From: Tetraselmis striata
Lineage: Eukaryota; Chlorophyta; Chlorodendrophyceae; Chlorodendrales; Chlorodendraceae
Direction of reading: 5' to 3'
Assembly (NCBI GenBank): GCA_006384855.1
Contig: VCJN01000810.1
Span: 229,337 to 293,336, forward strand
DNA: 64,000 bases
Position 1 is the stretch's first letter. Each line of letters opens with the position of its first letter. Positions 2,929 through 37,907 of the stretch are shown piece by piece. Under the pieces are notes generated by a model, which was given only the letters and a program-made list of their open reading frames with translations, was not told the DNA's origin and ran no database searches. The translations under genes and the position numbers were made by a program.

Positions 2929-3249
2929 CTACGCCGCGTGGTAGCCTGGTAGCATCGCGCTCAGGGCTGACGTGAACCGATCGACGGAGTTCGCACACCA
3001 CATGGCCTCCTGCTCTGCGAATAGGACGGGAACCAGTTGCCAGTCGTCGCTGTCGAGGTGTCGGTTCAGTCGATCCGCCCAAACGTTCGCGGCGGACTGG
3101 ATGCAGCGGGCTCTGATGTGTACGCCGTTGCTGTCCGACATGTACCATAGCTTGCGTGGTTCCGCCATTATCTCCGGAGATCGGGAGGTGACGCCAGCAA
3201 GGACGCTGCAAACCGCGTGATTGTCCTCGTGTAGCAATCTAGGTGTCAA
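2929..3249 (-). pseudogene. DIRS RNase H domain, 5'-truncated copy
   Basis: The 106-residue frame contains LLHEDNHAVCSVLAG, MSDSNGVHIRARCIQSAANV and WADRLNRHLDSDDWQL, typical of the RNase H domain after the RT in DIRS and pararetro-type elements. The RT that should precede it is absent: homology to the plus-strand copy stops at about 3240, where the head-to-head junction lies. The frame ends in TAG after LPGYHAA. The plus copy has the same TAG at the same site, so the stop predates the duplication, or is read through in the intact element. Confidence 0.7.
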
Positions 3250-4190: not shown

Positions 4191-5088
4191 CTAGTCAGCA
4201 TGGGGCTGCAACGCAACTCCGCCAAAGGGCTGTGGGAGCCGGTCCAGTACGGCCATCACCTGGAGGTGGACATCGACACGGCCACGGGAAAATTTTATGC
4301 CCCGGCGGACAAACAGCAGCGGCTTGCACGCCGCCAAGCCAAGCAGCTGGTGCAGCGCGCGGGCCGCGACGCCCGTTGGCTGTCCGTGCGGGAGCTGCAG
4401 TCGCTCGTTGGGCGGGCTCTATACATGTACATGGCGATCCCGGCCACGCGCTTCTACCTGCGGGAGCTCCACGACGTGGTGGGCTCCAAGTGGGGCGGTC
4501 GAGTGCGCACGACACACCAGTTGCGGCGCGACATGCAATGGTGGACCGCCGTGCCGAATCAGACCAACGGCCGCCCTATCCACCGCCATGTGGAGACGGC
4601 CTACGCGCACTGCGACAGCTCCGGCTATGGTTGGGGTGCGGTGCTGAATGGCAGGCTGGAGGCGCGGGGGTTCTGGGGGGCAGCCGACGAGCGCCGGCAC
4701 ATCACCTGGAAAGATTTGAAGGCCGTCCGGCTGACAGTGGAGATGGTTCCCGCCGCACCTCGCCGGTCACCGCATGTTGTTGCACGAGGACAATCACGCG
4801 GTTTGCAGCGTCCTTGCTAGTCTCATCTCCCGCTCTCCTGAGATGATGGCGGAACCACGCAAGCTATGGTACATGTCGGACATCAACGGCGTACACATCC
4901 GAGCCCGCTACATCCGGTCCGCCGCGAACGTCTAGGCGAATCGACTGAACCGACACCTCGACAGCGACGACTGGCAACTGGACCCCGTCCTATGCGCAAA
5001 GCACGATGCCATGTGGGGTGCGCACTCATCCGTCGAGCGGTTCGCGTCAGCCCTGAGCGCGATGCTACCAGGCTACCACGCTGCGTAG
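4188..5088 (+). pseudogene. DIRS RT thumb and RNase H, one stop
   Basis: From 4188 the frame is long and clean: SMGLQRNSAKGLWEP, HHLEVDIDTATGKFYAP, then RELQSLVGRALYMYMAI (thumb/connection) and ETAYAHCDSSGYGWGAVL, which carries the RNase H acidic start. After a frame change near 4750 it continues with LLHEDNHAVCSVLA and SAANV, a TAG, then ANRLNRHLDSDDWQL. The minus copy has TGG (Trp) where this copy has TAG. It ends with LPGYHAA and a TAG shared with the minus copy. Confidence 0.7.
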
Positions 5089-5518
5089 TTGGACCCCGGC
5101 TGCGAGGCGGTGGACTCCATGCACCTGTCCGAGGCGGAGTGGCGTCGCGAGAACTACTACTGCAACCCCCATGGCCGATTCTGCCGGACTTGGTACAGAA
5201 GCTACGCAAGAGCGGCGCGGTTGCTACCTTCGTGGCCCCTCGCTGGGAGGGCACGGTGTGGCATTCGGCACTTACCGAGATGGCGGCGGAGGAGCGCGTA
5301 GTATACTGCCTCGCCGTGATCTTTTCCGGCCGCGGGGTGGAGGGCAAGGCGCAATATTCATGGAGCGCCGCGCTGGGCAGTGATTATCTTCCGTGTGCCA
5401 TTCCGTCTTGGCTGCAACTGCGCCGCGGATCAGTGAGCGCAACTTTGGCGCCGTTCCCCGTACGACGAGGTGCTACGCATGTCGTCGGGCCCACGCGCGC
5501 CCCACGTGTGCCGTAGAG
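5089..5518 (+). pseudogene. DIRS Dam-like methylase domain, frameshifted
   Basis: This copy reads LDPGCEAVDSMHLSEAEW and YYCNP, then needs a +1 shift in a five-C run to give PPWPILPDLVQKL, RKSGAVAT and APRWEGTVWHSALTEMAAE. With one more C the motif would be CNPPW, the Dam-like motif IV. The element ends abruptly at about 5518, so no recombinase follows. An ATG-triplet microsatellite follows after about 20 bp. Confidence 0.55.
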
Positions 5519-9540: not shown

Positions 9541-9919
9541 GCGCGGCCGGGGCAGCGGGGCGCCAGCGGGGCGCCAGCGGGGCGCCAGCGGGGCGCCAAC
9601 GCGCCGCGGCCGGGGCAGCGGGGCGCCAACGCGCGGCGGCCGGCGCAGCGGGGCGCCAACGCGCGGCGGCCGGCGCAGCGCGGCGCCAACGCGCCGCGGC
9701 CGGGGCAGCGGGGCGCCAACGCGCGGCGGCCGGCGCAGCGGGGCGCCAACGCGCGGCGGCCGGCGCAGCGCGGCGCCAACGCGCGGCGGCCGGCGCAGCG
9801 GGGCGCCAACGCGCGGCGGCCGGCGCAGCGCGGCGCCAACGCGCGGCGGCCGGGGCAGCGGGGCGCCAACGCGCGGCGGCCGGCGCAGCGCGGCGACAAC
9901 GCGCGGCGGCCGGCGCAAG
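9541..9919. repeat. 30-bp GC minisatellite, short array (~12 units)
   Basis: Units of 30 bp, two per 60 bases, alternate GCGCGGCGGCCGGCGCAGCG and GGGGCAGCG variants and end GCGCCAAC. The first units are degenerate and include a GGGGCGCCAGC sub-repeat. Thirty is a multiple of three and stops are absent, so several frames stay open; I do not call a gene. The same unit makes the 2.5-kb array at 59184-61687. Confidence 0.95.
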
Positions 9920-18486: not shown

Positions 18487-19453
18487 GTTCACTGTAGATG
18501 TAGGTTCACTATGGAGGTATTCACTGTAGCCTTCCGGCAGCCTACCTCTGCAGTGATTGTGTTCACTATAGGGGTAGGGTTTTCACTATAGGGGTAGTGT
18601 CAGACGGTTATCGTTGTGGCGGGGCGAGCGATTGACCTTCAAACAGGTGGGAATCGTTTTATGTACTTTTTGGTTACATGGAGAGCGTCAAGAGAATCGT
18701 TTCGTGCATTACATCAAACAACACCTTAGCCCTGAGAGGGATGGGGGTTGTCATCTATGGGCTGCACCCTTTCTACAGCGGTGAAATAAGAGCCATTGGC
18801 ACGGCACTGTATTTCTCGGGAAACTTGGCCTCGTACTCCCCCTGGCACATGTGGTGCAACAATCCGGTGCAGCCAGCTACACCACACTCTTTCAGCTCTG
18901 GCCCGCCGGGCTCTCCCATGGCGGCAACTACGCAGTGCATGCCATAGCAATAGCGCTAATCGGGTTCCACCATGGCGGCGAGGCTTGCGTTGCTGTGATG
19001 GCATCACCGACTGTGCATGCAGCGAATGTATGTGCCGCCAACAACACTGTGTCAGTGTAATACAGTATAGAGCCGCCGCGCACGCCGCCACCGCAGCCGG
19101 CGCTCTACTTTACAGCGAGACAGCGAGTAAAGTAATGGAGGTTCACTATAGAGGTAGGGACCCCCCATTCGGGACCCCCCCCCTTTTACTATAGGGGTAG
19201 GTTCACTATAGCAGTGTGTTCACTATAGACTAATTACATAAGGGCTTTCACAAAAGCGCACTACAAGCAGAACTAACGTCGACTGTGAAAGGTTGCCAGC
19301 AAAAGAGAGACATAAGCCTGAAACCAAGATCGAGTAGGAGGACATGGAGCCAAGAACCAAGAAGGAGCCAAGGGAACCACGAAATCACTTAGCTGCCAGG
19401 GACCAAAGGGACCCCCGCCCCGGGGTAGGCTATCAGCCTTCACTATAGAGGTA
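17831..19453. repeat. Repeat field with TTCACTATAGRGGTAG motifs
   Basis: No gene is supported. The motif TTCACTATAGAGGTAG and close variants (GGGGTAG, TGGAGGTA) occurs about ten times in both orientations between 18425 and 19455 and again at 32190-32225. A 29-bp poly(C) tract lies at 18456-18484. An ~85-bp block at 18117-18202 starting TTACATGAGCTAGCAGCAGA recurs at 32297-32380 and, shorter, at 32664 and 44764. A small frame at 18678-18950 has no domain. Confidence 0.7.
19231..19263 (-). repeat. 33-bp dispersed motif, GTGCGCTTTTGTGAAAGCCC
   Basis: On the minus strand this is identical over 33 bp to the core of the 44-bp insertion in the copia LTR at 52648-52691. Diverged copies lie at 32262 (plus) and 33074 (minus). 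Confidence 0.85.
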
Positions 19454-20206
19454 TGCCGCAGCATCCGTCATATCCGCGTGCGCGTGAAGAACGGGACAGC
19501 CAAGCCCTTCCGGGTCGGCTAGGGTTAAAGCTAGGGTTCCATACCCGGTTGAGACCACAGGCAGGGCACCTGATTGGTTAGGGTTCCATACCCTGGCCAT
19601 AGCCCTGCGCGAGGCGCAAGGAGACATACATACCGGAGATCAGAGACCCGCCCAAGCACACCTAGGCGGGACTTCTAAGGGAACTCAGATAGTACCTCTA
19701 ATCGGGACCTCTAACAGGGACCCCCAAGGTAGACTACCTGCAGAAGACGAAGTACTGTACTGCTGCTGGTACAAGGCGCAAGACTCACTGTAGCCGCGGC
19801 CGAGTAGTAGTATAGGACTTAATGAGTACAATTAGACAAGAACAGTGCGTAATGCGTCTGGCGCGCGGTGCGCGCACGGCGCGCGTGCTATTAGCACTTA
19901 GCGTGACGTGCGGCCGCCTTGCCATGGCCGCGATCGCGTGCTTATAGAGGGCCTCCGCCTTCTGGCGGTCCCTCTTCCCCCTTGTCTTGCCTGTGTGTGC
20001 CTGTGTTTGCCTATGTTTGCCTGTGTTTGGCATAGGCAAGAACCTCTGCACGGGACGGAGACGGTGTAAGAGACGGAGATCGGCTTGAGGAACGAGGGCC
20101 AAAGGTAATCACGGTAGCCTGCGTGCTTGTCGTACGGTCGCACGCGTGCTGCTCGCTGCATCGTGCGCGCGCGCTGCTGGTGGTGCTGGGTTGTCACCAT
20201 TCGACC
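19454..20206 (+). repeat. Ty3-type LTR, partial inverted copy
   Basis: The sequence starts TGCCGCAGCATCCGTC and is the reverse complement of 20531-21276 with small indels. It is therefore an LTR in plus orientation lacking its last ~315 bp. Its left flank is the TTCACTATAGAGGTA repeat. It faces the 3' LTR of the minus-strand element, forming ~750-bp arms around a 324-bp centre. Confidence 0.85.
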
Positions 20207-20210
20207 ATTC

Positions 20211-21276
20211 GTCTTATGTACTCTTACGAGCAGTTCCCATATAGGTTTGCCTCCAACACCCCTTAGACCTTTCCTCACCTCTAGCACTCACTCTCACCCA
20301 CAAGAGCTCTTCCCCCTTGTCTGAACGCGAACCTAAGTCACGACAGGCACCTCTCAGACGCCTATAGGGCTTTAGTTCAGACCAGCGTTGCTGGTCTTGC
20401 CCGTACTCAGGGGGGTGAATGCCAGTGGCAATGAAGCCTTTCACCACAGGTCACTGCCACGCCGTGCAGTACTTTATGCAGTGCTGGTCGCGGCTATCAA
20501 CCGTTCCTACAGTACTTTACGTCGGTACCGGGTCGAATGGTGACAACCCAGCACCACCAGCAGCGCGCGCGCACGATGCAGCGAGCAGCACGCGTGCGAC
20601 CGTACGACAAGCACGCAGGCTACCGTGATTACCTTTGGCCCTCGTTCCTCAAGCCGATCTCCGTCTCTTACACCGTCTCCGTCCCGTGCAGAGGTTCTTG
20701 CCTATGCCTGTCATAGGCAAACACAGGCACACACAGGCAAGACAAGGGGGAAGAGGGACCGCCAGAAGGCGGAGGCCCTCTATAAGCACGCGATCGCGGC
20801 CATGGCAAGGCAGCCGCACGTCACGCTAAGTGCTAATAGCACGCGCGCCGTGCGCGCACCGCGCGCCAGATGCATTACGCACTGCCCTTGTCTAATTGTA
20901 CTCATTAAGTCCTATACTACTACTCGGCCGCGGCTACAGTGAGTCTTGCGCCTTGTACCAGCAGCAGTACAGTACTTCGTCTTCTGCAGCAGGTAGTCTA
21001 CCTTAGGGGTCCCTGTTAGAGGTCCCGATTAGAGGTACTATCTGAGTTCCCTTAGAAGTCCCGCCTAGGTGTGCTTGGGCGGGTCTCTGATCTCCGGTAT
21101 GTATGTCTCCTTGCGCCTCGCGCAGGGCTATGGCCAGGGTATGGAACCCTAACCAATCAGGTGCCCTGCCTGTGGTCTCAACCGGGTATGGAACCCTAGC
21201 TTTAACCCTAGCCGACCCGGAAGGGCTTGGCTGTCCCGTTCTTCACGCGCACGCGGATATGACGGATGCTGCGGCA
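20211..21276 (-). repeat. Ty3-type element, 3' LTR
   Basis: On the minus strand the LTR starts TGCCGCAGC at 21276. That boundary is set by three-way comparison with the inverted copy starting at 19454 and the internal copy ending at 32128. The other end is near 20211-20217 (CA at 20217), where homology with the 5' LTR copy at 30082 stops. Length is about 1.06 kb. It contains two AGGGTTCCATACCC phrases and an open frame of 105 codons (plus, 20625-20942) that I do not regard as a gene on its own. Confidence 0.75.
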
Positions 21277-21474
21277 GCTGCCGTCGCATGCTCGCATTCC
21301 CGCGTGGGGCGCTGTCACCAGCTCAATGGGCGGCCCATCCCCCCCCCCCCCCCCCCCAGACGGTTGGTCGCCAGAAGGGTGAACGGCCGCTGGGCGTCAA
21401 TTGACGCTCAGTGATGCTGGTCGCCAGCGCACGCCTCGGTGTGGAAGTGAATTGACGCCACGGAGTGACGCCAC

Positions 21475-24400
21475 TCAGCTCGCAGTTCTCGCTCTCGCAG
21501 CTCGTTGGAAGACCGCGAGCCACAGAGTTGATCGGCGCGTAGTGCGGTTACGCTGCATGTCGCCGGCAATAATGTGGAGCCGCCCACAGTCGCCTAGATG
21601 CCGTAGCCACTGCATGCGCGGGGAAGGTCCCTGCGCGATGTAGAAGATCGGTACTTGCACGAAAAGGATGTCCGCGCATGACGCCATGATTGGCAGCGCC
21701 AGATCAAGCAGTTGGAACCACGGGGAGGTCACCACTATGAAAGGGCCCTCTACCCGCGGCTGTGTTGTCATCATCGTTGTCGTCATCGTCGTCGTCGCCA
21801 CGGTTGCACTTACATCCGGGCGCACTGGTACACAAAGGACTCCAGCGCGTCCTCGCACATCTCAGTTTGGTACATCGGATTGAAGTCGTTGTTGATCACT
21901 GTCGCACCGCACGGCCGCAAGGCCTCAGCGGTGCTGCCATGTCCCGCCCACGGATCAAAGATTACTCGGCCGCGCCAGCTGATCACGTTGGCTAGCGCAG
22001 CGTACTCGCTCACTTGGTTACTGATCGCCGGTAGATAGTCATTGATTGCTCGCAGGTTGTTCATCGTTCTTGTCACAGTTGCTGGGTGCCAGGCGCCAGG
22101 CATGCCCCAGTTCAGTCTTGCTGCCACCGCTGCTCTTGTCGGCTGCAAAGGCGGGGCAGGGTCTTGAATCTCCTCGTCGCTGTCGTCGTTGTCACTGATT
22201 GTTGTGGCGGCTAAAGCCACCGATGCCCACTGTGCCGGCAACGCTGCGTCATCAGCGCTGCACTCCGCACACCGCCATGCCCCCCGCGGCACACGTGCCA
22301 CAGGTGGCTGATGACACAACTTGTGCCAGCCTCGTTCACAGTCTTCGCAGATGATGATCGGGTTGCGCTGGGTGCTGACGCGCCCGTCGCACTCCTCGCA
22401 CGCCATATTTGGGTCTTCAAATCCTGCCGGCAACACCACGTATGGAACGGCGCACCGCGCCAGCTCCTCAACGCGCACGCGCGCCGTGTCGCCGTCTGCG
22501 CCTTGGATGACCACCACTCCGTTGTCGTTCACCTCGTAAACCTTGTAAACAGCCGGTCGCACTCGTGGATCGAGCGCGTCTTGCTGCCGATGTTGCACGT
22601 AGACGAAGTCGCCGGGGCTGAAGCGCTGCACTCCGGGCGCCACCAACCCCGCGCGCCTCCTGCGATAGCGCATCACTTCACGATGCTGCGCCGCCTCCAC
22701 GTTGTGCATTGCCGTCGGCACCATGAGCGCCAAACGCTCCGCGCGCACTGTCATCAGCTCCCACATGCCCTCCGGGCTGTTGAAGTCCACGGCGCTCTCC
22801 TCAAAGAGCGCTCTCGCCTGCGCGGGAAACACGGGCGCCATGCCGTACACCAACTCGTATGGGCTGTACCTGGTGCTGGCTTGCTTGCTGCAACGGTAGC
22901 CCAGCTCGATGGAAGGCAGAAAAGTGTCCCACACGACGCGCTTGCCGGGCTGAACCACATAGCGCATCAGTGCCTCCTTGACTGTTTTCACCATCCCTTC
23001 CGCCAACCCATTGGGCTGCGGATGATAGGGCAGCGGCTTCGGATGATCGATGTCGTGCTCCACGAGAAGTTCGTGGAACTCGCCGCTGAACTCGGTACCG
23101 CCGTCGGTACACACCTCGCCTGGCGCCGCGAAACGCGCCAGCACTCTCTCTTGAAAGGCTTGTCGTATGTTGACTGCCTCCTTGGTGCGCAGCGGCACCA
23201 ACTCCACCCACTTGCTCGCCGCTTCCACCATCACCAACACCCAGACGTTGCGACTGCGGGTGGCCTCAAAAGGCCCCGCCAAGTCCAAGTGCCAGCGGTA
23301 GAACATGCCGAAGTGCGGCAGCGGCTGCATGTCCAGCGGTGAGGCTGCCTTCAGGCGACCGCTGGTGCCGCCGGGTCGATGTTGCAGCCGATCGCAGTAT
23401 GGACACGCCTTCTTGACTCGGGCTACATCCTCCACCATCCCTGGCCAGAAATATGAAGCGGCGATAACACTGCGCAGCCGATCCCGCCCCAAATGGCCCA
23501 TCTTGACATGCACATCCATAATCACGGTGTCTCGCTCACTGGGTGGCGGTACCTCGCGGTGCGTGCCGTCCTTGTGTAAATACCACAAGATGTTGTTTCT
23601 CCATGTATAGCGGGCATAAGGTTGCGGCATGTTGACGTTGCCCGCCTGCAGCTCCGCCATCGCCTCCGCGTCCATCCACGGATCGCCTCTCCGCGGTCCC
23701 GCCGTCAGCTCGCCGGTAACCGCCACCAAGTCGCCGTCGGACGTGCCCTCATGGGCGGTGTCCAGCACGCAGCGTCGCGCCCATGCTGACAGCTCCGGCT
23801 GTCGGCTGCTCTGAGCCGTTGCGCACCAAAAGGCTGCCGCATGTCGCACGGTGCCCTCCGGTGAAAACTCACCGCGCCCATCCAGCTCCGTTGGCTCGCC
23901 CTCCACGGGCCCCCGACTCAGACAATCTGCGTTGACGTGGTGAACGCCCTTCCGATAGCGAACCACGAAGTCGTACTCGCTGAGCCGCATCGCCCACCGC
24001 GCCAACTTCCCACGAAGCTGAGCGGTGTTCATCAGCCATTCCAAAGGCCGATGATCTGTCACCACCACAAACTGCCTGCCACACAGATAGTATCTGAACT
24101 TGTCCATGCCATACAACATGGCAAGACACTCACCCTCATAGCTGGCATAGTTTGGCTCCGCGCCTTGGCAGGTGCGGCTCGCAAACTCCACCACGTACTC
24201 CTGTCCTTCGTCGTCCTCCTGCGCCAGCACCGCGCCCAATCCAGCTCCGCTGAAATCGGTGTGCAGGATGAAAGGGCGGCTCCAATCCGGATTTCTCAGC
24301 ACGGGAGCTGAAACCAGGTCTGCCTTGAGCTGCTCGAAGGCTCGTTGCTGCTCCGATCCCCACTCCCACGGCACCTTGCCGGTGAGCTTGGTCAGCGGCT

Positions 24401-25018
24401 TGCGCTTGACTGCAACTTGCTCGATGAACTTGCCGTAGTAGCCCACCATGCCGAGGAAGCGCCGAAGCCCCGCAACGTCAGTTGGCGGCGGCATCTTCAC
24501 CACAGCCTCCACCTTGGAGTGCTGCGGGAATACGCCTTCGCCGTCGACCCAATGGCCCAAGAAAGCAATCTGCCTCACAGCCATGCGCCCCTTGCCGGGC
24601 GCCAGTCTGATGCCCGCTTTTGCGAGCCTCTGAAACACCGTCTCCAAATGCTGAAGGTGCTGCTGAAACACCTCAGCGTCGCTCATCTCGGCTGCGCCTG
24701 AAAAGACACAGATGTCATCGGCGTAAACCGCCACGAACGGCAGATCGCCAAGGGCCTCATCCATGACACGCTGCCATGCTTGGCTGGCGTTCTTGAAGCC
24801 CATCGCCATCCGGCACCACTCATACTGCCGGTCGCTGCCCCCAAAGGCAGTCTTGTGTATGTCCTCCTCTGCGATGGGCAGCTGATGAAACGCCGACTTG
24901 GCGTCAAACCCGCTGTACATGCGCGCGCCTGCGACCTTGCTGAGTAGCTCGTCTGTCTTGGGCATACAATACGCCCACGACTCAGTGACACTGTTCAACG
25001 GGCGAGCGTCCAAACACA
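21475..25018 (-). CDS. Ty3-type pol: RT, RNase H, IN, PHD, methylase
   Basis: The frame from 25019 to 21810 encodes, in order: RT (YCMPKTDELLSKVAGARMYS, FDAKSAFHQLPIAEEDIHKT, catalytic VAVYADDICVFS); RNase H (FILHTDFSGAGLGAVLAQED, YASYEGECLAMLYGMDKFRY, VTDHRPLEWLM); integrase with its HHCC finger (HLGRDRLRSVIAASYFWPGM, CPYCDRLQ) and DDE residues (WHLDLAGPF, CTDGGTEFSGEF, NGLAEGMVKTVKEAL); a PHD finger (CEECDGRV, IICEDCERGWHKLCHQPP, WRCAEC); and the first half of a Rossmann methyltransferase (VIFDPWAGHGSTAEAL, INNDFNPMYQ). A frameshift near 21810-21858 moves the end into another frame (IVVTSPWFQLLDLALPIMAS), closing at 21475. The RT N-terminus lies beyond a solo LTR at 25024. The retroelement core is otherwise uninterrupted and probably young. 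Confidence 0.9.
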
Positions 25019-25023
25019 CCCGG

Positions 25024-25851
25024 TGTCACAACCCCCTTTAGGACTTAGGCCGAATAATCGTCTAGCCATAGATGGTCCTAAAGCAGGAGCTGAGTCGAGG
25101 GCCCATTGGACCGTTATTCCACACGGCCAGGAATAATGAGCGGAGATTTGGGAAAAGGGATTCTTACAGTACCGGAACTCGGTAACCTGGGTGACTTGCC
25201 CGGCGGTGGTTTTGCCGGCCTATTTATAGTCGCTGGTTTCCGTCATTCCGTGCGCTGCGTATTGATTCCAATTCCCGGCACTTGTGCTGCGTGTAACTAC
25301 TAGACTAATACTAAAATCGACGTGTGCGGTCCTAACCCGCGGCCCGTCGGTATTTTAGTCACACACTACTAAGTACAGACACGGTTGCTAGCACCTTCGT
25401 CTGTCCGCAGCACAGTGATATAATATCTTACTACTATTGCTATAGCAAGTGCTATAGCATTCTAGATAGTTCTAGTAGGTTCTAGTACCTACTACTAACA
25501 CTCCACTAAGGCAGCGCTCCATCTCACGCTTGGTATCATCATCCTCTAGCAGGTGACACCATAGCGTACGACAATCGCGCTCCTGCTGGTACGCAGGCGT
25601 AACTACAGGTTACTCGCACCCCATGTGGGTACTCGTAATACTGTCCTGCACTACTAGTCGCCTTGTAGTCGCTCGTACTGTCGCCTCGTCGTCCTCGTCC
25701 CAGTACTTCGCCTTCACTTGTACTCGCACTCGCAATGCTCATACTCGTACTTCGCTTGGCTTGTACTCGTTCTCGTCCGCCTCAGTCGCCAGTTCTTCGC
25801 TCCTTCGTCGGCTCCCGCAGTACAAAGTACAGCAGTGTAGAGTACATAACA
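25024..25851. mobile_element. Solo LTR inserted in the RT gene
   Basis: This 828-bp block starts TGTCACAAC and ends GTACATAACA (TG...CA). It is flanked on both sides by CCCGG (25019-25023 and 25852-25856), a 5-bp target duplication. Removing it and one CCCGG joins NWTGIRV to CLDARPLN in frame, the expected RT motif order. It has no coding capacity of note. The parent family is not otherwise visible here. Confidence 0.9.
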
Positions 25852-25856
25852 CCCGG

Positions 25857-27055
25857 ATCCCGGTCCAGTTGCCGTCGTCGTCCTTCTTCGGTGGACACAC
25901 TACTGGGATGCTGTAGGGAGATTGGCTCTCGCGGATCGCCCCAGCTGCCAACAGCTCCTTGCACCAGCTGTCCACGAAGTCCCACTCAGTCTTGCTCAAT
26001 CGGTACTTGGGTCGCTTAATGGGCTGCGTGTTGGTCGTCGGTATCCTGAACTCCCAGTGGTTGACGGCCGGTAGGTCGCTGACGGACCACACCCACACGT
26101 CATCCCAAAAGCTGTCGCAGAGCTCCACTAGCTGTCGTTGCTGTGAAGCCTCGCACTCGCGCCCGCACCCCCAGTGTTTCTCAGGATCCTTCAGGCTGCG
26201 AACATCCTCCACGTGATCATTCATACTTGCCTGCGTGTAGCCACGATTGGCCCACGCAGCCGCGCTACTCCGTTCCGCAGTCCCGCCGCCGTCCGACACG
26301 GCGTTGGCGCCGAAAGCTCGGCGCCCCGCCCTGCTTGTCGCTGTTACCTCGCGGCGGTAGCGCGCGCTTGCGCGCACCATCACTGCCACGAACATGGCTA
26401 ACACCGTGGTGTTGCCGAGACGACTCGCCTCGCTGAAGTGCATTGACGTGCCGCCCAACCAAATGAGCAGCAGCCAGCAGCATAGCGCCTGTTGACACAG
26501 CTGCTGCCATGCTCTCCCGCAGGATCTCTGCATCCTGCGTTGATCTCGTCTCTCTCGTTCCGCGCGCTGAGCTGCCTGGGCAGCCCGAGCTGCGCGCTCC
26601 AGCTCCTCCAAGTCCCTCAGTCGCTGCTGCTCCACGAAGAGCTGCCCGACGATCCACGCGACGCTGTGCAGACCCATGGCATTGCCTATGAGGCGCTCAT
26701 GGTCCGGCAGCGATATGCCGTGACTTACGTTCGGCTCGTAACCGAAAAGCTCCTCCTTCATGTGGACAGTGGGCCGTTCCCACTCGCCCGTGTTGATGTT
26801 GAACAACATGCCGGCCCCCTCGCCGGAGTAGGCATCTGAGTCCGATCGCGCCAAGATCGTTGGCAACGCGCGTGGCTGCCCCGGTTTGTTGACGCGAACT
26901 CCGTTGGGTGGTGTCGGCAGATTGACATGCGGCCGTAGGTGCGGTGGCAGCACCTCTCGCAGCAGTCGTGGCTGCATATCCGCCCGCCTCTCCCACGCCA
27001 ACTTCAGTCTCTCCTCGTCCAGAATCGTCGCACTCGGTGATGATTCGCTCCACAA
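25857..27055 (-). CDS. C5 DNA methyltransferase C-part and RT N-part
   Basis: The frame opens in the methyltransferase (ATILDEERLKLAWERR) and carries LIGNAMGLHSVAWIVGQLF, the GN-type motif X of C5 methyltransferases. It continues through an Arg/Glu/Ala coiled-coil-like stretch and a hydrophobic patch (ALCCWLLLIWLGG) into the RT start: NHWEFRIPTTNTQPIKRPKY, LSKTEWDFVDSWCKELLAAG, SPYSIPVVCPPKKDDDGNW, TGIRV. It is cut there by the solo LTR. The methyltransferase is thus fused upstream of the RT in one polyprotein. A frameshift near 27010-27050 separates it from the catalytic part. Confidence 0.8.
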
Positions 27056-27522
27056 CCCGCCTCATCAATCACGAGCGCTCTCCCGATGATCTTCGTGATG
27101 TATTTCTCAGACTCTTTGATGTACGGTCTCTCGTCTCCGCTCGTATCCACGTTCTCCAGCAGCCACCCCACGCCGGTGGGCTGCTTCTCCTCGAGCTTCT
27201 CGATGAACGCGGCCACGTGAAAGAGCAAACGTGACCTCCGGTCGCGCAATCCCAGCGCGTTGCGATTGGCTCTGCTCATGCCTGGGCAAGGCCATCCACA
27301 CCCCACTATGTCTATGTAAGGCAGGCGCCTCACGTCCTCCGCTGTGATCGCCGTGATGTCCTGTGGGAACGAGTCCCACCCCTTGATCGCGCTAGCTGGT
27401 AGTAGATCCGGATATCTCCTACTGAGCTCCTTGAACACGCTGCCCAGCGGCCTTGCGGGCTGCCGGGTCGATGTCCGAATGCCGGTATCTGGCCACCTTC
27501 TGACCGTTGGCCAGCATGGCAT
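27004..27522 (-). CDS. C5 cytosine DNA methyltransferase, catalytic part
   Basis: The frame contains FKELSRRYPDLLPASAIKGW, DSFPQDITAI and YIDIVGCGWPCPGMSRANRN, the Pro-Cys motif IV with the catalytic Cys codon at 27286-27288. LLENVDTSGDERPYI is motif VI (ENV). It ends near HHRVRRFWTRRD. Motif I lies in the preceding frame (27420-27565: SLYEPCGGGYVAVLNAML, HSDIDPAARK) after a one-base shift near 27440; motif X lies in the following frame. The enzyme would transfer a methyl group to C5 of cytosine. Retrotransposon-borne C5 methyltransferases are known from some algae and dinoflagellates. Two frameshifts make this copy doubtful as an active enzyme, unless they are sequence errors. Confidence 0.85.
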   Translation of the reverse strand: MPCWPTVRRWPDTGIRTSTRQPARPLGSVFKELSRRYPDLLPASAIKGWDSFPQDITAITAEDVRRLPYIDIVGCGWPCPGMSRANRNALGLRDRRSRLLFHVAAFIEKLEEKQPTGVGWLLENVDTSGDERPYIKESEKYITKIIGRALVIDEAGCGANHHRVRRFWTRRD

Positions 27523-29209
27523 TCAGCACGGCAACGTAGCCTCCGCCACATGGCTCGTACAGGCTGATGCCCTCTTCGCGGGTGCTCAGCCTCGCCAGCC
27601 CGTGACGCTGCAGGCTCTTCACCTCCTGCAAAGGCGGTAGGTCTGCCGGCTCGCAGGTCTTGGACTCTTGCACGTCACGCCGTGAGGGTTCGTGGGCGGC
27701 GTGGCTGTGAGACACGTCACTGCCCCCCCCACTCTCCTCCCCCATCTCATCATCGCCGAGCTCCATCCCATGGCAGTAGCTCGCTCTCTCCACGCGCACC
27801 ACAGGTTGGTGCTCGCGGACCCGCCGTTCCCATGCCGTTTGACTGAGCAATGGCACTCTGCCGGCTGGTCGGTTGGGTGCGCGGAAAGTGCAGATTCTGG
27901 TCGCCGGGTCCGGTCGCAGCCCGAGGGCTGTGATGGTGGGTCCACCGAGCAGCAAGCCCGGTGCCTCGCCTCCATTCTCGTACACGCGCGGTGCGTGATG
28001 AGCTGCCATGATTGAGGTGATGGGGTCCCGAAGCGTGAAGACCACGCCATCCCGCAATCGTCGTTGCTGCTCGCATGAGCGCTTGCCATTGGCGAGCACC
28101 ACCACCATGTCAACGTCTACCCACCCGCCAGCGCCCTTCACCACGGCCTCTGCCGCGCTTGGTTCCATCGCTGACGCGTTCATGCGGGTGTGGCTGCTGC
28201 CGCCGTCGGAAATGGTCTCACACTGCAGCAGGGTATTGTTGGCGTGCAACTCGCACGTGATGGTGTCAAGCCGAGCCGTCTCCGGCTGCTCCTTCGCCTC
28301 AGCCCCCGTGGGCTGAAGGGCAAAAATGCCCTTGTTGGCGACTTCCGCCTGCTGCTCCAGGCAGCGTCGGGTCTCAGACCCTTTGGGCAGCCGTAGTGCT
28401 TGCTCCCTGATGTCTGCCTTAGTGGCATTGCGTCGATAGTCAGTGGCGGGTTGCCACTTGCCGCTGCGGCGACACACTGATGCCTCCTCAACCGCCGTGC
28501 TGGCATTGCGCTGCGCATTTGCACGCTTGCGATCTTCCTCCTCCTCGCGTTGTCTCGCGAGTTGACCTGGCCGGTAAATGGCAAAAGACCGTTCAGTCTC
28601 AGCCTCTCCGCCGGCGGTCTTCTCCTCCGCGGTAGACTTGCCGCCGCTTCGTTGGTCAGCGACCTCCTCCACCATCATCAGCGCTGCCGCGAAGGCGCGC
28701 TCCCCGCTCGAGGTCATGGCTGAGTGAGCGTGGCTGCTGATCGGCTCGGTACTCAGGGCACCGCCGCCCCATGCTGTTGCCATGACGCTCTCCATCATCC
28801 CGCCGCCGCTGCGCTCGAGCTGGTAAGCCTCCATCAAGCTGATGGAGACTCGCTTGCTCTCCAGAGCACGCATGACAGCATGCTTCTCCCAGCCATCCTC
28901 CACGGGCTCGTGCTTGACCAGCCGCTTGGCGATCTCCATCAGTGGCATGCGCGGCTGTCCACCGCCGTTGGCCAGTGACACAGGCACCGTGACGCTCTGA
29001 GCTGCGCTGGTGAGCTTCGCCGTCAGCTCTGTACGGCTGTGCATTTGCTGCGCCATCTCCATCGATGGGGTGGTGAAGCCGCGAGGCAGCCTCCGCTGCC
29101 TGGCCTCACGTTCTCCGTCCTCCATGCGCACCGTGTTCACGCCATGGCGTTGAGCCTCCGTGCTCTTACGCTGTGGGCGCAACGGGCTGGCTGCTGCCAG
29201 CCCCACCAC
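27419..29209 (-). CDS. Ty3-type gag/protease region and MTase motif I
   Basis: The 596-residue frame begins inside gag-like sequence (VGLAAASPLRPQRKSTEAQR, then MPLMEIAKRLVKHEPVEDGW and ALESKRVSISLMEAYQLE). A basic coiled-coil-like part follows (ARQREEEEDRKRANAQRNAS). Next is a protease-like segment, TISDGGSSHTRMNASAME, where Asp-Gly-Gly stands in for the usual Asp-Ser/Thr-Gly, followed later by GLLLGGPTITALGL. The end (residues about 549-596) is motif I of the C5 methyltransferase. No CCHC knuckle is seen. The protease call is by position and a weak motif. Confidence 0.65.
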   Translation of the reverse strand: MVGLAAASPLRPQRKSTEAQRHGVNTVRMEDGEREARQRRLPRGFTTPSMEMAQQMHSRTELTAKLTSAAQSVTVPVSLANGGGQPRMPLMEIAKRLVKHEPVEDGWEKHAVMRALESKRVSISLMEAYQLERSGGGMMESVMATAWGGGALSTEPISSHAHSAMTSSGERAFAAALMMVEEVADQRSGGKSTAEEKTAGGEAETERSFAIYRPGQLARQREEEEDRKRANAQRNASTAVEEASVCRRSGKWQPATDYRRNATKADIREQALRLPKGSETRRCLEQQAEVANKGIFALQPTGAEAKEQPETARLDTITCELHANNTLLQCETISDGGSSHTRMNASAMEPSAAEAVVKGAGGWVDVDMVVVLANGKRSCEQQRRLRDGVVFTLRDPITSIMAAHHAPRVYENGGEAPGLLLGGPTITALGLRPDPATRICTFRAPNRPAGRVPLLSQTAWERRVREHQPVVRVERASYCHGMELGDDEMGEESGGGSDVSHSHAAHEPSRRDVQESKTCEPADLPPLQEVKSLQRHGLARLSTREEGISLYEPCGGGYVAVLNAMLANGQKVARYRHSDIDPAARKAAGQRVQGAQ

Positions 29210-29214
29210 CTCGA

Positions 29215-29823
29215 TCAGCTGGTCTTCCTCCAGCTCGTCCAGTGCTGCCCACAGGTCGCCCAGGGCAAAGCCGCCCTCTGCGCTTTACAGCGCGTCCACT
29301 GGCTGTCGCCCACGCCGGGGCCCTCAAGCTCAGAAGTGGGGCTACGTCCACGCGGCCTCAGAAATCTGAGGGCCGCTGCCGCGTCGCCTCGCCGGTGTTG
29401 GCGCACACCCGTCTCAAGCCGATACACGAACAATTCCAACGTCTGGTATAACTCAGTGCCGATGAACCTCAGATCCACTCCACCGCCACGAAGAGGTTGG
29501 CACCGAGCTGAGCCACGCACCCGCCAGCCGTCACCCTCGCCGGGGCCCTCAGGCGGCGATGCCGCTCCCTCCAAGTGCACTCCGGCACTGACACACGACT
29601 GTGAAGCCGGCGCCCTCCCACTCCCGGGCTCACGCCCTGCCTCCTTCCTACCACCTGTCGTCGTTGAACCGTTGAACTGGAGCAGGTCGTTGAACTGGAG
29701 CAGGCCAAAAGAACCGGAGCAGGCCAAAAGAACCGGAGCAGTCCAATTGGTACCCAAAGGAACACGCCGCTCTCTCACCTCCCGCGGGATTGTGAAAGAG
29801 CGTCGGCACGCCGTGGCTCTCAC
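29215..29823 (-). CDS. Ty3-type gag N-terminal part, frame-shifted
   Basis: A 202-residue frame precedes the gag/protease frame. Continuing its last part in the neighbouring frame gives ALDELEEDQLIEVVGLAAA, which joins smoothly to the frame from 29209, so a frameshift lies near 29220. Two tandem duplications (GAACTGGAGCAGG twice, then CCAAAAGAACCGGAGCAG twice) lie at about 29678-29740. The start codon is uncertain. Confidence 0.4.
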   Translation of the reverse strand: MRATACRRSFTIPREVRERRVPLGTNWTAPVLLACSGSFGLLQFNDLLQFNGSTTTGGRKEAGREPGSGRAPASQSCVSAGVHLEGAASPPEGPGEGDGWRVRGSARCQPLRGGGVDLRFIGTELYQTLELFVYRLETGVRQHRRGDAAAALRFLRPRGRSPTSELEGPGVGDSQWTRCKAQRAALPWATCGQHWTSWRKTS

Positions 29824-30081: not shown

Positions 30082-30693
30082 GTCTTATGTACTCTTACGA
30101 GCAGTTCCCATATAGGTTTGCCTCCAACACCCCTTAGACCTTTCCTCACCTCTAGCACTCACTCTCACCCACGAGAGCTCTTCCCCCTTGTCTGAACGCG
30201 AACCTAAGTCACTACAGGCACCTCTCAGACGCCTATAGGGCTTTAGTTCAGACCAGCGTTGCTGGTCTTGCCCGTACTCAGGGGGGTGAATGCCAGTGGC
30301 AATGAAGCCTTTCACCACAGGTCACTGCCACGCCGTGCAGTACTTTATGCAGTGCTGGTCGCGGCTATCAACCGTTCCTACAGTACTTTACGTCGGTACC
30401 GGGTCGAATGGTGACAACCCAGCACCACCAGCAGCGCGCGCGCACGATGCAGCGAGCAGCACGCGTGCGACCGTACGACAAGCACGCAGGCTACCGTGAT
30501 TACCTTTGGCCCTCGTTCCTCAAGCCGATCTCCGTCTCTTACACCGTCTCCGTCCCGTGCAGAGGTTCTTGCCTATGCCTGTCATAGGCAAACACAGGCA
30601 CACACAGGCAAGACAAGGGGGAAGAGGGACCGCCAGAAGGCGGAGGCCCTCTATAAGCACGCGATCGCGGCCATGGCAAGGCGGCCGCACGTC
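30082..30693 (-). repeat. Ty3-type element, 5' LTR, truncated
   Basis: This is nearly identical to 20211-20823 in the same orientation, so it is the 5' LTR of the minus-strand element. It stops at 30693 (CCGCACGTCACG) and runs directly into inverted internal sequence. The outer ~450 bp of the LTR are missing. Confidence 0.85.
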
Positions 30694-32001
30694 ACGGCGC
30701 AGCATCGTGAAGTGATGCGCTATCGCAGGAGGCGCGCGGGGTTGGTGGCGCCCGGAGTGCAGCGCTTCAGCCCCGGCGACTTCGTCTACGTGCAACAACG
30801 GCAGCAAGACGCGCTCGATCCACGAGTGCGACCGGCTGTTTACAAGGTTTACGAGGTGAACGACAACGGAGTGGTGGTCATCCAAGGCGCAGACGGCGAC
30901 ACGGCGCGCGTGCGCGTTGAGGAGCTGGCGCGGTGCGCCGTTCCATACGTGGTGTTGCCGGCAGGATTTGAAGACCCAAATATGGCGTGCGAGGAGTGCG
31001 ACGGGCGCGTCAGCACCCAGCGCAACCCGATCATCATCTGCGAAGACTGTGAACGAGGCAGGCACAAGTTGTGTCATCAGCCACCTGTGGCACGTGTGCC
31101 GCGGGGGGCATGGCGGTGTGCGGAGTGCAGCGCTGATGACGCAGCGTTGCCGGCACAGTGGGCATCGGTGGCTTTAGCCGCCACAACAATCAGTGACAAC
31201 GACGACAGCGACGAGGAGATTCAAGACCCTGCCCCGCCTTTGCAGCCGACAAGAGCAGCGGTGGCAGCAAGACTGAACTGGGGCATGCCTGGCGCCTGGC
31301 ACCCAGCAACTGTGACAAGAACGATGAACAACCTGCGAGCAATCAATGACTATCTACCGGCGATCAGTAACCAAGTGAGCGAGTACGCTGCGCTAGCCAA
31401 CGTGATCAGCTGGCGCGGCCGAGTAATCTTTGATCCGTGGGCGGGACATGGCAGCACCGCTGAGGCCTTGCGGCCGTGCGGTGCGACAGTGATCAACAAC
31501 GACTTCAATCCGATGTACCAAACTGAGATGTGCGAGGACGCGCTGGAGTCCTTTGTGTACCAGTGCGCTCGCGATGTAAGTGCAACCGTGGCGACGACGA
31601 CGATGACGACGACGACGATGACGACAACGATGATGACAACACAGCCGCGGGTAGAGGGCCCTTTCATAGTGGTGACCTCCCCGTGGTTCCAACTGCTTGA
31701 TCTGGCGCTGCCAATCATGGCGTCATGCGCGGACATCCTTTTCGTGCAAGTACCGATCTTCTACATCGCGCAGGGACCTTCCCCGCGCATGCAGTGGCTA
31801 CGGCATCTAGGCGACTGTGGGCGGCTCCACATTATTGCCGGCGACATGCAACGTAACCGCACTACGCGCCGATCAACTCTGTGGCTCGCGGTCTTCCGCG
31901 ACAACGAGCTGCGAGAGCGAGAACTGCGAGCTGAGTGGCGTCACTCCGTGGCGTCAATTCACTTCCACACCGAGGCGTGCGCTGGCGACCAGCATCACTG
32001 A
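30496..32001 (+). CDS. Chimeric ORF: LTR start fused to PHD-methylase
   Basis: A single 501-codon frame starts in LTR sequence (MITFGPRSSSRSPSLTPSPS) and crosses the junction at 30693/30694 (RRPHVTAQHREVMRYRRRRA). It then carries an intact inverted copy of the Ty3 C-terminal region. Features in order: an integrase C-terminal, SH3-like part (FSPGDFVYVQQRQQDALDPR); a PHD finger at about residues 163-215; methyltransferase motif I DPWAGHGST near 312; SPWF near 393; and a tail ending HTEACAGDQHH. Unlike the minus-strand copy, it has no frameshift between motif I and SPWF. The PHD Trp before HKLC is Arg here. It could be a new LTR-driven gene or simply a rearranged fragment. Confidence 0.6.
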   Translation: MITFGPRSSSRSPSLTPSPSRAEVLAYACHRQTQAHTGKTRGKRDRQKAEALYKHAIAAMARRPHVTAQHREVMRYRRRRAGLVAPGVQRFSPGDFVYVQQRQQDALDPRVRPAVYKVYEVNDNGVVVIQGADGDTARVRVEELARCAVPYVVLPAGFEDPNMACEECDGRVSTQRNPIIICEDCERGRHKLCHQPPVARVPRGAWRCAECSADDAALPAQWASVALAATTISDNDDSDEEIQDPAPPLQPTRAAVAARLNWGMPGAWHPATVTRTMNNLRAINDYLPAISNQVSEYAALANVISWRGRVIFDPWAGHGSTAEALRPCGATVINNDFNPMYQTEMCEDALESFVYQCARDVSATVATTTMTTTTMTTTMMTTQPRVEGPFIVVTSPWFQLLDLALPIMASCADILFVQVPIFYIAQGPSPRMQWLRHLGDCGRLHIIAGDMQRNRTTRRSTLWLAVFRDNELRERELRAEWRHSVASIHFHTEACAGDQHH

Positions 32002-32128
32002 GCGTCAATTGACGCCCAGCGGCCGTTCACCCTTCTGGCGACCAACCGTCTGGGGGGGGGGGGGGGGATGGGCCGCCCATTGAGCTGGTGACAGCGCCCC
32101 ACGCGGGAATGCGAGCATGCGACGGCAG
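32002..32128 (+). other. Ty3 internal 3' end with poly(G) tract
   Basis: This continues the inverted copy past its stop codon, through a 16-bp poly(G) tract (32052-32067) in polypurine-tract position, to GACGGCAG at 32128. There it leaves homology at exactly the point where the LTR starts in the minus-strand element (21276-21278). Confidence 0.7.
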
Positions 32129-33900
32129 GTAGCTAACACGGTGTTAAGCGTTCCGTCCCCCCCCCCCCGCCCCCCACCCCCCCCGGTTTACTATAGATAG
32201 GGGTAGGTTCACTATAGAGGTAGTGTCACTGTACAGCGTCACTGTACTGTTAGTTCTGTTGTAGTGCGCTTTTGTGAAAGCCCTGATGTAATATAATTAC
32301 ATGAGCTAGCAGCAGAAGGCGATATCGGAAATCACCAAAATAAAACGCAATCAGAAAGGTCCTCTACATCGACTGCGGGGTGGAAGCAGTAACACGAGAA
32401 GACGCAGAGTGGGCACGAGCACACGCATCAGACTTGGCCGTCTGCACACCGGCAGAGAGAATGCCGCCCAGGGTAGCCCTGATGTAATTAAAAGTCACTG
32501 TACAGCGCCAGGCTTGATGCGCCGCGTAATACTCGCACAGTAAAGTATTTGCGAGGGATTTTACGGTTTGTCATTAAGTACTGAACTGAGTTTAGTCAGA
32601 CAAGTCGGGTGGCGCGCGCGGACGCCCGCATCAGCGGGAGTGTGCGGTTCGTATACAGGTTATTTACATGAGCTAGCAGCAGAAGGCGATATATATCGGA
32701 AAAAAAACAGGTACCCCGTACCAAGAATGTTGTAGTCCGGGGGCGGCGCCCATCTGCGTTAATACAGTCGTTGGACACTTCTAGAATGTTCCGTCAGCGA
32801 CTGCTTCCAGCGCATCAAGGAATCCTTAACCCGTGGTCGCCTAGTTAGGGCTGTAGAGGGCAGCCGACAGGCAGCTCCCGACCTTGCCTACATCAGTGAT
32901 AGCAATCGAACAACGAAAATACGACGAATCAGAACCGCTGAAAGCTCCCGGGGGTGTCCCGGGGGCCGATTAAAAACGGCGAATCTGACAAGCTGCAGAC
33001 CACATCAGATTCTACGCAACACGACAGACTCGTACTACATGCAATCAAATCATGTTCTTGTAGTATATATTTACATCGGGGCTTTCACAAAAACGCACCA
33101 TGTTCTTGTAGTATGTTGTCACGATAGTGGCACCATTGCCTCCTCTTGCTACCGCCGGTATCTGCTTATTAAATCGATGCATAGTTTGGATGCATAGTTT
33201 CTGACGGTGATCGAACCGCTGTTCTGGATATCCACCAGGATACAGGGTTGTGGGAAATTGTATCACTGGCCTCCAGCTGGTTTTATATTGGCTTGGGGAG
33301 CAATGAGGCAACATTTTTGATTGATGTCGATGCTTTTCCTACTGATGGCTGTAGTAACACGCGGTGATGTCGCGTAACACGCCATCCTGCGCTGTTGCCA
33401 GTCTGTCCCGGGGGCGAAAAAAATGGGGAATGATGTATCAATGCCATATCGCGATCCAAGATGTCATGATCTGCATCAGCTCCAAATCCATCACAATATC
33501 TGATCACAAGTGACGATCGTACTATGCAAGGATGTAAGGATGACATCAAAATTGCCCTCGTAGCAAGATATGTACCCGGTACTACTGACGATAATCGTTA
33601 TGCTGGCGATACAGGTACGGGTAGCGACTACCCCGTACCGGTACCCGTCGTACGAGTTCGAGTAGTATAGTCCACGAAATCAATGAGGGCGCAATCCCTG
33701 CAGCCGGGCGCGCGCGCGCGGGTTCGTCACTTGGTCGCGGGCGCCCTGCAAGCCTCTCGTTGCACACTGCGCCCACCCCAGAGATCGGTAGTCATTCGGA
33801 AGGTTACGACTACGCGATACCGGTATATCAGTACGACGGAGGATTACCTACAGTCAAGCTCCTCCAGGACCTCAACTCCACACTGAACCACGGCCCAGGC
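32129..33900. repeat. Repeat field; no gene seen
   Basis: This contains a C-rich tract (32157-32184), TTCACTATAGAGGTAG motifs (32190-32225), the 33-bp GTGCGCTTTTGTGAAAGCCC motif at 32262 and a diverged inverted one at 33074. The TTACATGAGCTAGCAGC block lies at 32297-32380 with a short copy at 32664. A minus frame at 33283-33549 (HHSPFFSPPGQTGNSAGWR) may be an eroded element scrap, but no family is recognised. Sequence just before 33901 is probably 5' UTR or promoter of the next gene. Confidence 0.5.
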
Positions 33901-35930: not shown

Positions 35931-37907
35931 TCGGCTTCTCCAACTCCACAGTCTATGAGGATGGAAGTTGGGCAGCATTACAAATAGAATAAAAATATGT
36001 GTTTATAATGTGGACTATTTTGAAAGAGAACTAGCAGATACACCCCACCCGTGTTGCAAACCAATTTCGGAAAGCGCAAAGTACATTTGTTGAGTTCGCA
36101 TCGCCTATTTATTCAGAAAACGTATACGTGCATTGTTTGGAATCGGATAGCGCTACCCGCACGCAGACCGATGCAGAACGATAAGACAACGTTAAATTAT
36201 ACTGGCAATTATTACGACGCGTTATTGCAAGCACTTTTACGCGTTTATTTATTAGGCGATTAACGGCACGCATACATACTGGTAGGGATTGTAATAACAT
36301 TCTAATCATACGTACTAACAACGGAATACATAATCCTTACCACGTCCAAACAGTATATTTTGATAGAACTTCAGCAATCATAATAGGGAAGACTGACTGC
36401 CGGCTGAAGCAGAATGGAATAGAACAAGCGCTAGAAGGGTCACAAGACACAGCCAGGCACCGCCGTTTACTTGTGTTGCCACCTGCGTGCTGGTTTTAAT
36501 AACTGTGTTTTGTTTCTTCCCCAAAGCAGGACGTGCGCTACAGCCATGCGCAGCAAGGCGTGTGCAACAACCTTTCCTGGCCAACCACAGATGCCGAGGA
36601 GCAAAGAGCGACTGCGGTCGGACAACACCCAGATGTCCCCCATGGGCCGTGGCAGCATTCAATCTCACAGCTCCTCCGATTCCCTGGCAGGCGGGCATTG
36701 CGCCCCTACCGGAGGGCACTACCCGGCTGACGATCTGCTGCACCTTGCCGACGATCTGCCGGACCTGGGAGTCGACGACCTGGATCTCGGCCTGGCTCCA
36801 GACATGCTGCAGCGCCACAGCACGATTGAGCGCGACCAGCACGACGTCGCCCAGCCCATCAACACCTTGAGCATGGACTCCCATCTCAGGCAGGCCGTAA
36901 TGCCTAGGGACTCGATGCACCCGGGCGTCTACTCAGACGAAGGTTCCCTCCACGGCATGTGGCACGACGATGGATCCCCCCATGGTGTGCGATCCGATGG
37001 GGGCTCCTTCCGCAGCGGGAATCACAATGATGGATCCCCCCATGGTGTGCGATCCGATGGGGGCTCCTTCCGCAGCGGGAATCACAACAATGGATCCCCC
37101 CATGGTGTGCGATCCGATGGGGGCTCCTTCCGCAGCGTGGATCACAATGATGGATCCTTCCAGGGTATGCATCAGGATCCCGGATCCTTTCCTGCTGACC
37201 ATGGATGCGATGCGGGCTCTTACCGCGGCGTGCCTCACAGTGAAGCCCCCCTCTCTAGCACACAGTTTACCCAGGACGCCGACCCTTTGATGAGCGGACT
37301 GCTGTCCACAATAGAGCCCAACCCAACAATGTTCAGGGACTTGGCAGACGTTGAGGCTGAGCAGCTGTGGAACCTCGGAGCGCCTGAAGATGTGGTGCCC
37401 CAGGCCACTGGCGCAAACGGGCCGAAGAAGGCGACCTGTGGGACTGTGCCCTGTACTGTACAGGATGTGTCGCCTGAGATCATCACTTCGACCGGTGGGG
37501 ATCGCGTTTTGATGGTCATTGATGGCCTGGCACAGTGCAGTATGTCCGGCCGGCAGCTGCGCATCAGCATTGGTGGCATCCTGGTCTCAGCCCAGCACGT
37601 GTCGCCCGGCGTCGTCAGCTTTGTGGCGCCCAAGCTCAAGGAAGGCGATGCGGAAGTGTCGCTCGTAGATACCGCTGCAGTTCCGTGGTTTCGGATGTGT
37701 CCTCCGGCCCTGATCACGGTGGCACCATCAGAGCAATCGCTGTGGAATGTCCGCGCCGCGAAATCGCAGCCCCACAGGTCCCTGGCGCCGTTCCTCGCAG
37801 CGGCAGCGGACGGCGCCTATCACGAGCACGTGCTGAAGCTTACCAGGGCGCTGCTTCTGAACATGCCAGCGCTGGAGATTGAGGCAATGGCCCTGCAGGG
37901 GCAGTGA
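33901..37907 (+). CDS. CAMTA-like transcription factor 1 (CG-1 + TIG)
   Basis: Proposed exons: 33901-34168, 34790-34968, 35111-35334, 36530-37907 (682 residues). Junctions are GT-AG, and phases agree if the third donor is the GT at 35335. Start MSPPDGYVMD is the first ATG in the frame. CG-1 DNA-binding domain, residues about 49-170: MSAGVQELLQKARTQWLKCN, FLYDRVNVKFFRLDGHEWRK, RETHEKLKLDQVVMLNCYYA, RRCYWLLESDQSFVIVHYL. An acidic/His-Gly-Ser middle part has three copies of a 20-residue repeat. The TIG/IPT domain is at about 532-613 (VQDVSPEIITSTGGDRVLMV). Plant and animal CAMTAs add ankyrin repeats and calmodulin-binding IQ motifs; I see neither. It is probably a nuclear regulator. Introns 1 and 3 contain poly(C), (AT)n, (CA)n and (CT)n runs. 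Confidence 0.8.
34186..34206 (+). repeat. Poly(C) tract in CAMTA1 intron 1
   Basis: About 20 C lie 18 bp after the splice donor. Similar tracts occur in CAMTA1 intron 3 and in CAMTA2 intron 1. Confidence 0.9.
34389..34407 (+). repeat. Interstitial telomere-type repeat
   Basis: CCCTAAAACCCTAAAACCC is 2.4 copies of the (CCCTAAAA)n motif used at Chlamydomonas-type telomeres. A degenerate neighbour (ACCCTACAAAACCCTAAAC) lies at about 34448. It sits within CAMTA1 intron 1. Confidence 0.7.
35355..35447 (+). repeat. Poly(C) followed by (CA)n in CAMTA1 intron 3
   Basis: About 24 C are followed by about 30 CA dinucleotides. A (CT)n run follows at 35896-35930 in the same 1.2-kb intron. These create spurious Pro, Thr-His, Cys-Val and Arg-Glu frames. 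Confidence 0.95.
36967..37146 (+). repeat. Three 60-bp in-frame repeats in CAMTA1
   Basis: Three 60-bp units encode GSPHGVRSDGGSFRSGNHN-type repeats. The first two are almost identical; the third ends SVDHN. Flanking SLHGMWHDD and SFQGMHQDPG look like older, diverged units. Confidence 0.95.

Follow-up and report, generated by a model that had tools for sequence, protein, structure and literature searches.

The window analysed here, a 64,000-nucleotide (nt) stretch of the genome of the chlorophyte alga Tetraselmis striata (assembly GCA_006384855.1, contig VCJN01000810.1, positions 229,337 to 293,336 of the forward strand), carries on its minus strand a damaged copy of a Ty3-type retrotransposon, which encodes in this order gag/protease, a C5 methyltransferase, reverse transcriptase (RT), RNase H, integrase, a PHD finger and a second methyltransferase-like domain, referred to below as MT2. 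The first open reading frame (ORF), ORF1 (27419-29284), contains a gag remnant, a protease-like DGGSSH motif and motif I of the C5 methyltransferase (YEPCGGG). ORF2 is found in several parts, the first of which (27004-27522) encodes the C5 motifs IV (GCGWPC) and VI (ENV, as LLENV) and a motif VIII-like box (HRVRRFW), and matches the Pfam family DNA_methylase (PF00145) with 26.4 bits; the second (25852-27061) encodes motif X (GNAM, in the ORF 25739-27061), a linker and the start of the RT, as aligned with the related proteins P0001 and P0006. The next part (21813-25023) encodes the RT (24549-25010), RNase H (23973-24287), the H2C2 domain (23382-23549) and the core (23043-23300) of the integrase, the PHD finger (22260-22400) and the first half of MT2 with its FDPWAG box, and the second half of MT2, with a TSPWF box, follows at 21475-21861, out of frame with the preceding ORF. 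The Pfam matches in the ORF 21810-25025 are RT_RNaseH (118.6 bits), RVT_1 (80.8), Integrase_H2C2 (50.3), rve (35.1) and PHD (27.9), all of which, like that to PF00145, lie above the gathering threshold. An earlier note, made from the letters of this DNA alone, had proposed a Ty3-type element with this domain order on one strand and with the C5 motifs I, IV, VI and X, which these matches and motifs bear out; the protease was recognised by eye alone, from the motif DGGSSHTR, and gave no Pfam match.

When the RT-to-MT2 ORF was searched against the 224-Mb assembly (2,903 contigs), 47 matches were found. Beside the window copy, 25 copies are near full length (residues 2 to 1070 covered), and in 15 of them the ORF2 frame runs for at least 1,750 amino acids (aa) without an internal stop. 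As the copies were found by matching the RT-to-MT2 ORF itself, forms that lack the PHD finger or MT2 are under-sampled. The window element also matches 11 T. striata gene models with 84-100% identity over the matched part, eight of them at 97% or above. The 5' sides were fetched for 20 copies, and the 3' sides for the same 20. The RT-RNase H is nearest to Ty3, the best solved match of the relative P0001 being Ty3 Gag-Pol (8.1e-75), and the H2C2 and rve domains come after RNase H, which is the Ty3/Gypsy order with a DDE-type integrase. The 20 copies are not bounded by an ordinary pair of long terminal repeats (LTRs); they are organized as A-coding-B, usually plus A-B, and the complete split direct repeats A-coding-B-A-B, which are those of the DIRS order, are closed in 14 of the 20. 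No tyrosine recombinase of the DIRS kind was found, rve being present and no phage-integrase family being listed by Pfam in the ORFs of the element. Elements of the DIRS order are not known to make a target-site duplication on insertion, whereas a perfect 4-bp duplication, and none longer, was found in 15 of the 16 copies of which both outer ends were located, C238 being the one without. We favour a Ty3/Gypsy-type retrotransposon family whose units, of about 10.5 kb each, combine a DDE-type integrase with split direct repeats like those of DIRS, as part of an explanation that as a whole has, in our judgement, about an even chance of being right. No relative of the element was found in scans of viral contigs, and no report of this T. 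striata element in a literature search that covered few subscription papers.

The unit starts with TGCCGC and ends with ACGGCA, and measures 10,544 bp in the copy C1431. In 18 of the 20 copies, GC and a second A region (A2) come after the first B region (B1); 14 of these are closed by a second B and four are not within the stretch read; the other two, C1431 and C2171, end at B1 with a duplication and no A-B tail. Among the 14 closed copies, A2 stops at A position 951-954 in 12, and at 615 and 961 in the remaining two; their second B begins 25 to 70 nt ahead of the end, with 0-53 nt of filler, which varies from copy to copy. The two A regions of a copy are 98.3-100% identical in the 14 closed copies (for C2631 the comparison covers no more than 192 nt, and for C981 a part of A), and these insertions therefore look young. 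Such a structure may arise if synthesis is primed at the B-A junction and in most cases then jumps to an RNA 3' end near A position 953, and the copies without an A-B tail would be those in which no jump took place. As to the other end of the element, the first 106 residues of ORF1 contain no methionine on L011 and other 5' sides, and the gene models P0007 and P0037 link a short exon matching the A start to gag; ORF1 may start on a spliced leader.

In the window, the minus-strand copy has a second, partial copy around it, on the plus strand (19454-20206 and 30695-32127) and with an open PHD-MT2 frame; the structure thus reaches beyond 21475-29823, the extent given in the earlier note. The outer copy is flanked by GGTA on the left (19450-19453) and on the right (32128-32131), a target-site duplication of the same 4-bp type as in 15 of the 16 other copies. 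Its A region (19454-20206, plus strand) starts with TGCCGC, a start seen in 17 of the 20 fetched 5' sides, and is a 97.4% inverted repeat of 20531-21276, which belongs to the A2 of the minus copy (20211-21276, minus strand). This A2 extends past A position 953, and is separated from the end of B1 (ACGGCA, ending at 21279) by a GC spacer (21277-21278, minus strand) that is the same in 18 of 18 copies having A2. At the 5' side of the minus copy, a shortened A region with leader (30082-30696, minus strand) forms a 99.5% direct repeat of 20211-20825; an ordinary LTR pair was considered for these two and rejected in view of the A-coding-B(-A-B) organization of the other copies. The 3' part of the outer copy (30695-32127, plus strand) contains the integrase end, a PHD finger (30988-31128), an open MT2 (31219-31998) and a B ending in ACGGCA, and is 61% identical to P0001 over PHD-MT2. 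The minus copy is broken, i.e. its gag core is missing in comparison with P0017, its C5 domain has a small deletion in comparison with P0006, and its MT2 contains a frameshift. Within its RT lies an 828-nt solo LTR of a different element (25024-25851, minus strand), and not an intron, as its TG...CA ends and the 5-bp CCGGG duplication around it show.

The C5 domain is split between the two ORFs: motif I closes ORF1, motif IV and all that follows lie in ORF2, and the ORFs overlap in the +1 frame within the domain (27419-27522, minus strand). Both motifs are present in 18 of the 20 fetched copies, and in every one of these motif IV lies 256 nt beyond motif I and in the +1 frame with respect to it. 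As the two motifs sit in different frames, in the window as well as in these 18 copies, the element does not encode the one polyprotein that the earlier note had assumed. ORF1 measures 1,129 aa from stop to stop in seven of the 19 copies with motif I, and in 15 of the 19 the stretch before the stop reads GCC GCT GGG CAG CGT GTT CAA GGA GCT CAG TAG. The same break recurs in a metagenomic lineage, where one DNA stretch can encode the end of P0025 and the start of P0001 in +1 register over 35 nt, a register that none of 500 shuffled heads and none of 38 other proteins reached; the DNA deduced for this overlap is close to that of the window. P0032 (33% identical) ends at the same break, and none of the 12 found proteins with motif I continues to GC.WPC. 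When the read-through domain was compared with solved structures, 37 matches were obtained, the 27 ranked first being DNMT3A/B/C and the other 10 HhaI (best E 1e-4), in alignments that start from motif III. The domain is Dnmt3-like, DNMT3 being the nearest among the solved C5 methyltransferases. The ratio of nonsynonymous to synonymous polymorphism (pN/pS) is 0.16 for the ORF2 part of the domain (16 open copies of 20) and 0.15 for the end of ORF1 (15 of 20); here and below, only open-frame copies of equal length were used, and low values are therefore favoured.

The PHD finger matches PF00628 with 27.9 and 31.0 bits and has its C4HC3 ligands, all eight of which are invariant in the four aligned lineages, so that this part of the earlier note holds; the nearest solved PHD fingers include those of ATXR5, KAT6A, PHF21A and AIRE. 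In a panel of 29 copies (20 pieces, L002-L008, L034 and the plus copy of the window), the PHD-MT2 frame is open to or near its end in 24, which were used for pN/pS. With L053 left out because it has lost both MT2 boxes, pN/pS in the open copies is 0.31 for the PHD finger and 0.22-0.23 for MT2, both halves of which are constrained; PHD and MT2 are under purifying selection in these copies. A low-complexity insert in MT2 is not (1.09), and with L053 and the insert counted the values are 0.50 for MT2 and 0.29 for the PHD finger plus linker. Seven closely related copies gave 0.29 for RT-RNase H (two variable sites), 0.00 for the integrase (six) and 0.00 for the PHD finger (one), numbers of sites too small to weigh. 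Copies lacking the PHD finger or a methyltransferase had been named in the earlier note as what would speak against its proposal. In many copies the C5 domain, the PHD finger and MT2 have stayed together. Five truncated or divergent matches were inspected: four contain PHD-MT2 DNA, including C398 and C102, which had been suspected of lacking it, and one, C1995, is an internal deletion without PHD-MT2. Among the relatives, P0014 has a PHD annotation and no recognisable MT2.

MT2 could be assigned to no known family, as it has no Pfam or NCBIfam match and no significant PHROG match. A resemblance to the Dam-like family PF05869 was considered and is supported by no match. A profile of four MT2 sequences found no significant solved relative, and with relatives added it gave three weak matches (E 0.15-0.3), all of them to DNA amino-methyltransferases or a putative modification methylase. 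The TSPWF box is not the canonical catalytic motif IV box. Relatives of MT2 occur elsewhere in the same genome in open frames of their own (C2240, C1921 and C423; L074-L076), one of which belongs to a large repeated set in the assembly; they have no Pfam or NCBIfam match, and one of them matches a phage DNA-methyltransferase family. Three results weigh against the part of MT2 in the explanation favoured here: of the four aligned lineages, two (P0008 and P0010) have degenerate forms of both boxes, the domain itself being retained; the MT2 of P0008 is 33% identical to that of P0001, no better kept than the C5-RT linker (38.5%); and Foldseek with the PHD-MT2 model (mean predicted local distance difference test score, pLDDT, 53.8) found no match at E<=0.001. 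The "two writers" of the earlier note are not supported as worded there, the fold and activity of MT2 being only indicated and its boxes decayed in half of the lineages aligned. Alternatively, PHD and MT2 might be carried along as passengers or have a structural role, with MT2 no longer active as a methyltransferase but binding DNA or RNA, and the Dnmt3 domain might be the only one that acts, as the loss of the boxes in P0008, P0010 and the T. striata copy L053 and the lack of a family model for MT2 would suggest. We consider this rather unlikely, since FDPWAG and TSPWF are present in P0001 and, of the 24 open T. striata copies, in the 22 other than L053, which has neither box, and L065, which has no TSPWF, both halves of MT2 are constrained, and the relatives in the same genome retain DPC(A/S)G and TSPWF.

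As regards the split of the C5 domain, the likeliest reading of these sequences is that a conserved +1 recoding site, i.e. programmed frameshifting, probably operates within the domain. Several points tell against it. Even with the two parts of the domain joined, the PF00145 match starts at profile position 48 and misses the motif I part, which therefore rests on alignment and motif; the end of ORF1 resembles AviRa, only below the cut-off. No slippery site was recognised at the ORF1/ORF2 overlap, the RNA downstream of it folds no better than shuffles (z -0.31), with no stable structure, and several gene models cross the gap via predicted introns, in differing ways; for these reasons splicing keeps some share of the probability. 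An intron would join ORF1 and ORF2 without a ribosomal frameshift, as in the gene models P0007, P0019, P0034 and P0037, which join ...LANG to MS(R/K)AN, and P0024 and P0027, which join ...QGAQ to ANRN. However, these joins differ and drop motif IV, so that the spliced product would lose part of the C5 domain, the skipped stretch encodes protein well conserved between T. striata and P0001, and the second lineage also has the +1 overlap; splicing is in our view unlikely.

Retrotransposon-borne Dnmt3 has been reported from charophytes and dinoflagellates (PMC5890265), and the DNMTs of other retrotransposons have been reported there to perform de novo CG methylation. The closest published element found, compared by its description only, is KnitGypsy-Dnmt3 of Klebsormidium nitens (PMC5890265), which resembles the T. 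striata element in that its domains follow the Gypsy order, its methyltransferase is related to Dnmt3 and under purifying selection, and its repeats have the DIRS-like arrangement A-coding-B-A-B. It differs in that its Dnmt3 is described as lying in the Pol ORF, whereas that of the T. striata element, in a chlorophyte host, extends across two frames; the passages of PMC5890265 that describe it say nothing of PHD and MT2, and neither "PHD" nor "frameshift" occurs in the main text. None of the relatives listed is labelled Klebsormidium. SymbioDIRS-Dnmt3 of Symbiodinium, as described in PMC5890265, likewise has a Dnmt3 in a retrotransposon with A-coding-B-A-B repeats, but a tyrosine recombinase in place of the DDE-type integrase. 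DIRS elements with a Dam-like adenine methyltransferase, mentioned in PMC5890265 and PMC6338049, also combine a retrotransposon with an amino-methyltransferase-like domain, whereas the RT, integrase and target duplication of the T. striata element are of the Ty3 kind and its MT2 matches no adenine-methyltransferase Pfam family. Chromodomain Ty3/Gypsy elements (P0035 and P0036, PF00385) likewise have a chromatin-reader domain annotated on the pol protein, which is a chromodomain and not a PHD finger plus MT2.

Taken together, the best explanation is a Ty3/Gypsy element with a +1-recoded Dnmt3, PHD and MT2 in Gag-Pol, in which we have middling confidence, slightly lowered by the P0008 comparison and the Foldseek result. 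Some ribosomes would shift +1 in the overlap of about 100 nt, and the whole Dnmt3 would be made only as part of Gag-Pol and packaged with the RT. In the particle or at integration, it might then methylate the element cDNA or the insertion site. The PHD finger behind the integrase could contact the histone H3 tail and bias integration, and MT2 could be a relative of Rossmann-type amino-methyltransferases that adds a second base mark, or else only bind nucleic acid in the lineages with decayed boxes. The element may mark its own or target DNA and read chromatin, as suggested in the earlier note. A broader, joint reading is offered tentatively, as less likely than not: the gag-pol recoding site within the DNA methyltransferase would couple methylation to the life cycle, the whole enzyme existing only in frameshifted Gag-Pol; with a second base-modifying enzyme and a histone reader in it, the same protein would both set and recognise marks during integration; and the A2-B2 tail, with its fixed A end near 953 and private B start, would be rebuilt at each insertion by priming and template jumping unlike those of ordinary LTR elements. 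That the extra domains serve a host or defence role, e.g. against DNA viruses, as hypothesized for retrotransposon methylases in general (PMC6338049), is highly improbable, as they belong to the pol frame of the element itself and accompany it in the different lineages. A recoding site in a catalytic domain, if true, would be a direct way to confine an enzyme to the virus-like particle. A Dnmt3 in a chlorophyte element with the repeat layout of the charophyte element also makes one ancient green-algal lineage testable against repeated capture, and the open copies, numerous and nearly identical, lend themselves to the mapping of methylation and RNA with long reads, by which self-methylation of the element DNA is directly testable.

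Several other features were found in the window. A second C5 methyltransferase-like ORF (56797-57459, minus strand) lies outside the element, matches PF00145 with 34.3 bits, contains SSPPCQPFS and is interrupted after motif IV in this frame. A Copia-type element (48301-52183, minus strand) consists of integrase-side domains (50171-52183) followed by ORFs that are RT-like by eye (48301-50167). The ORFs at 39764-40941 (minus strand) and 36435-37904 (plus strand), with CG-1 and TIG domains, look like pieces of a CAMTA-like transcription factor gene, the TIG match of the latter being below the cut-off. By eye, the ORF at 1895-5516 resembles a DIRS-type element with RNase H and a tyrosine recombinase; the two ORFs tested had no Pfam match, and an inverted repeat of about 740 nt (2493-3237/4777-5516) lies within it. 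A minisatellite with a period of about 30 bp is common to 9541-9917 and 59180-61689, and extends over 2.5 kb at the second location.

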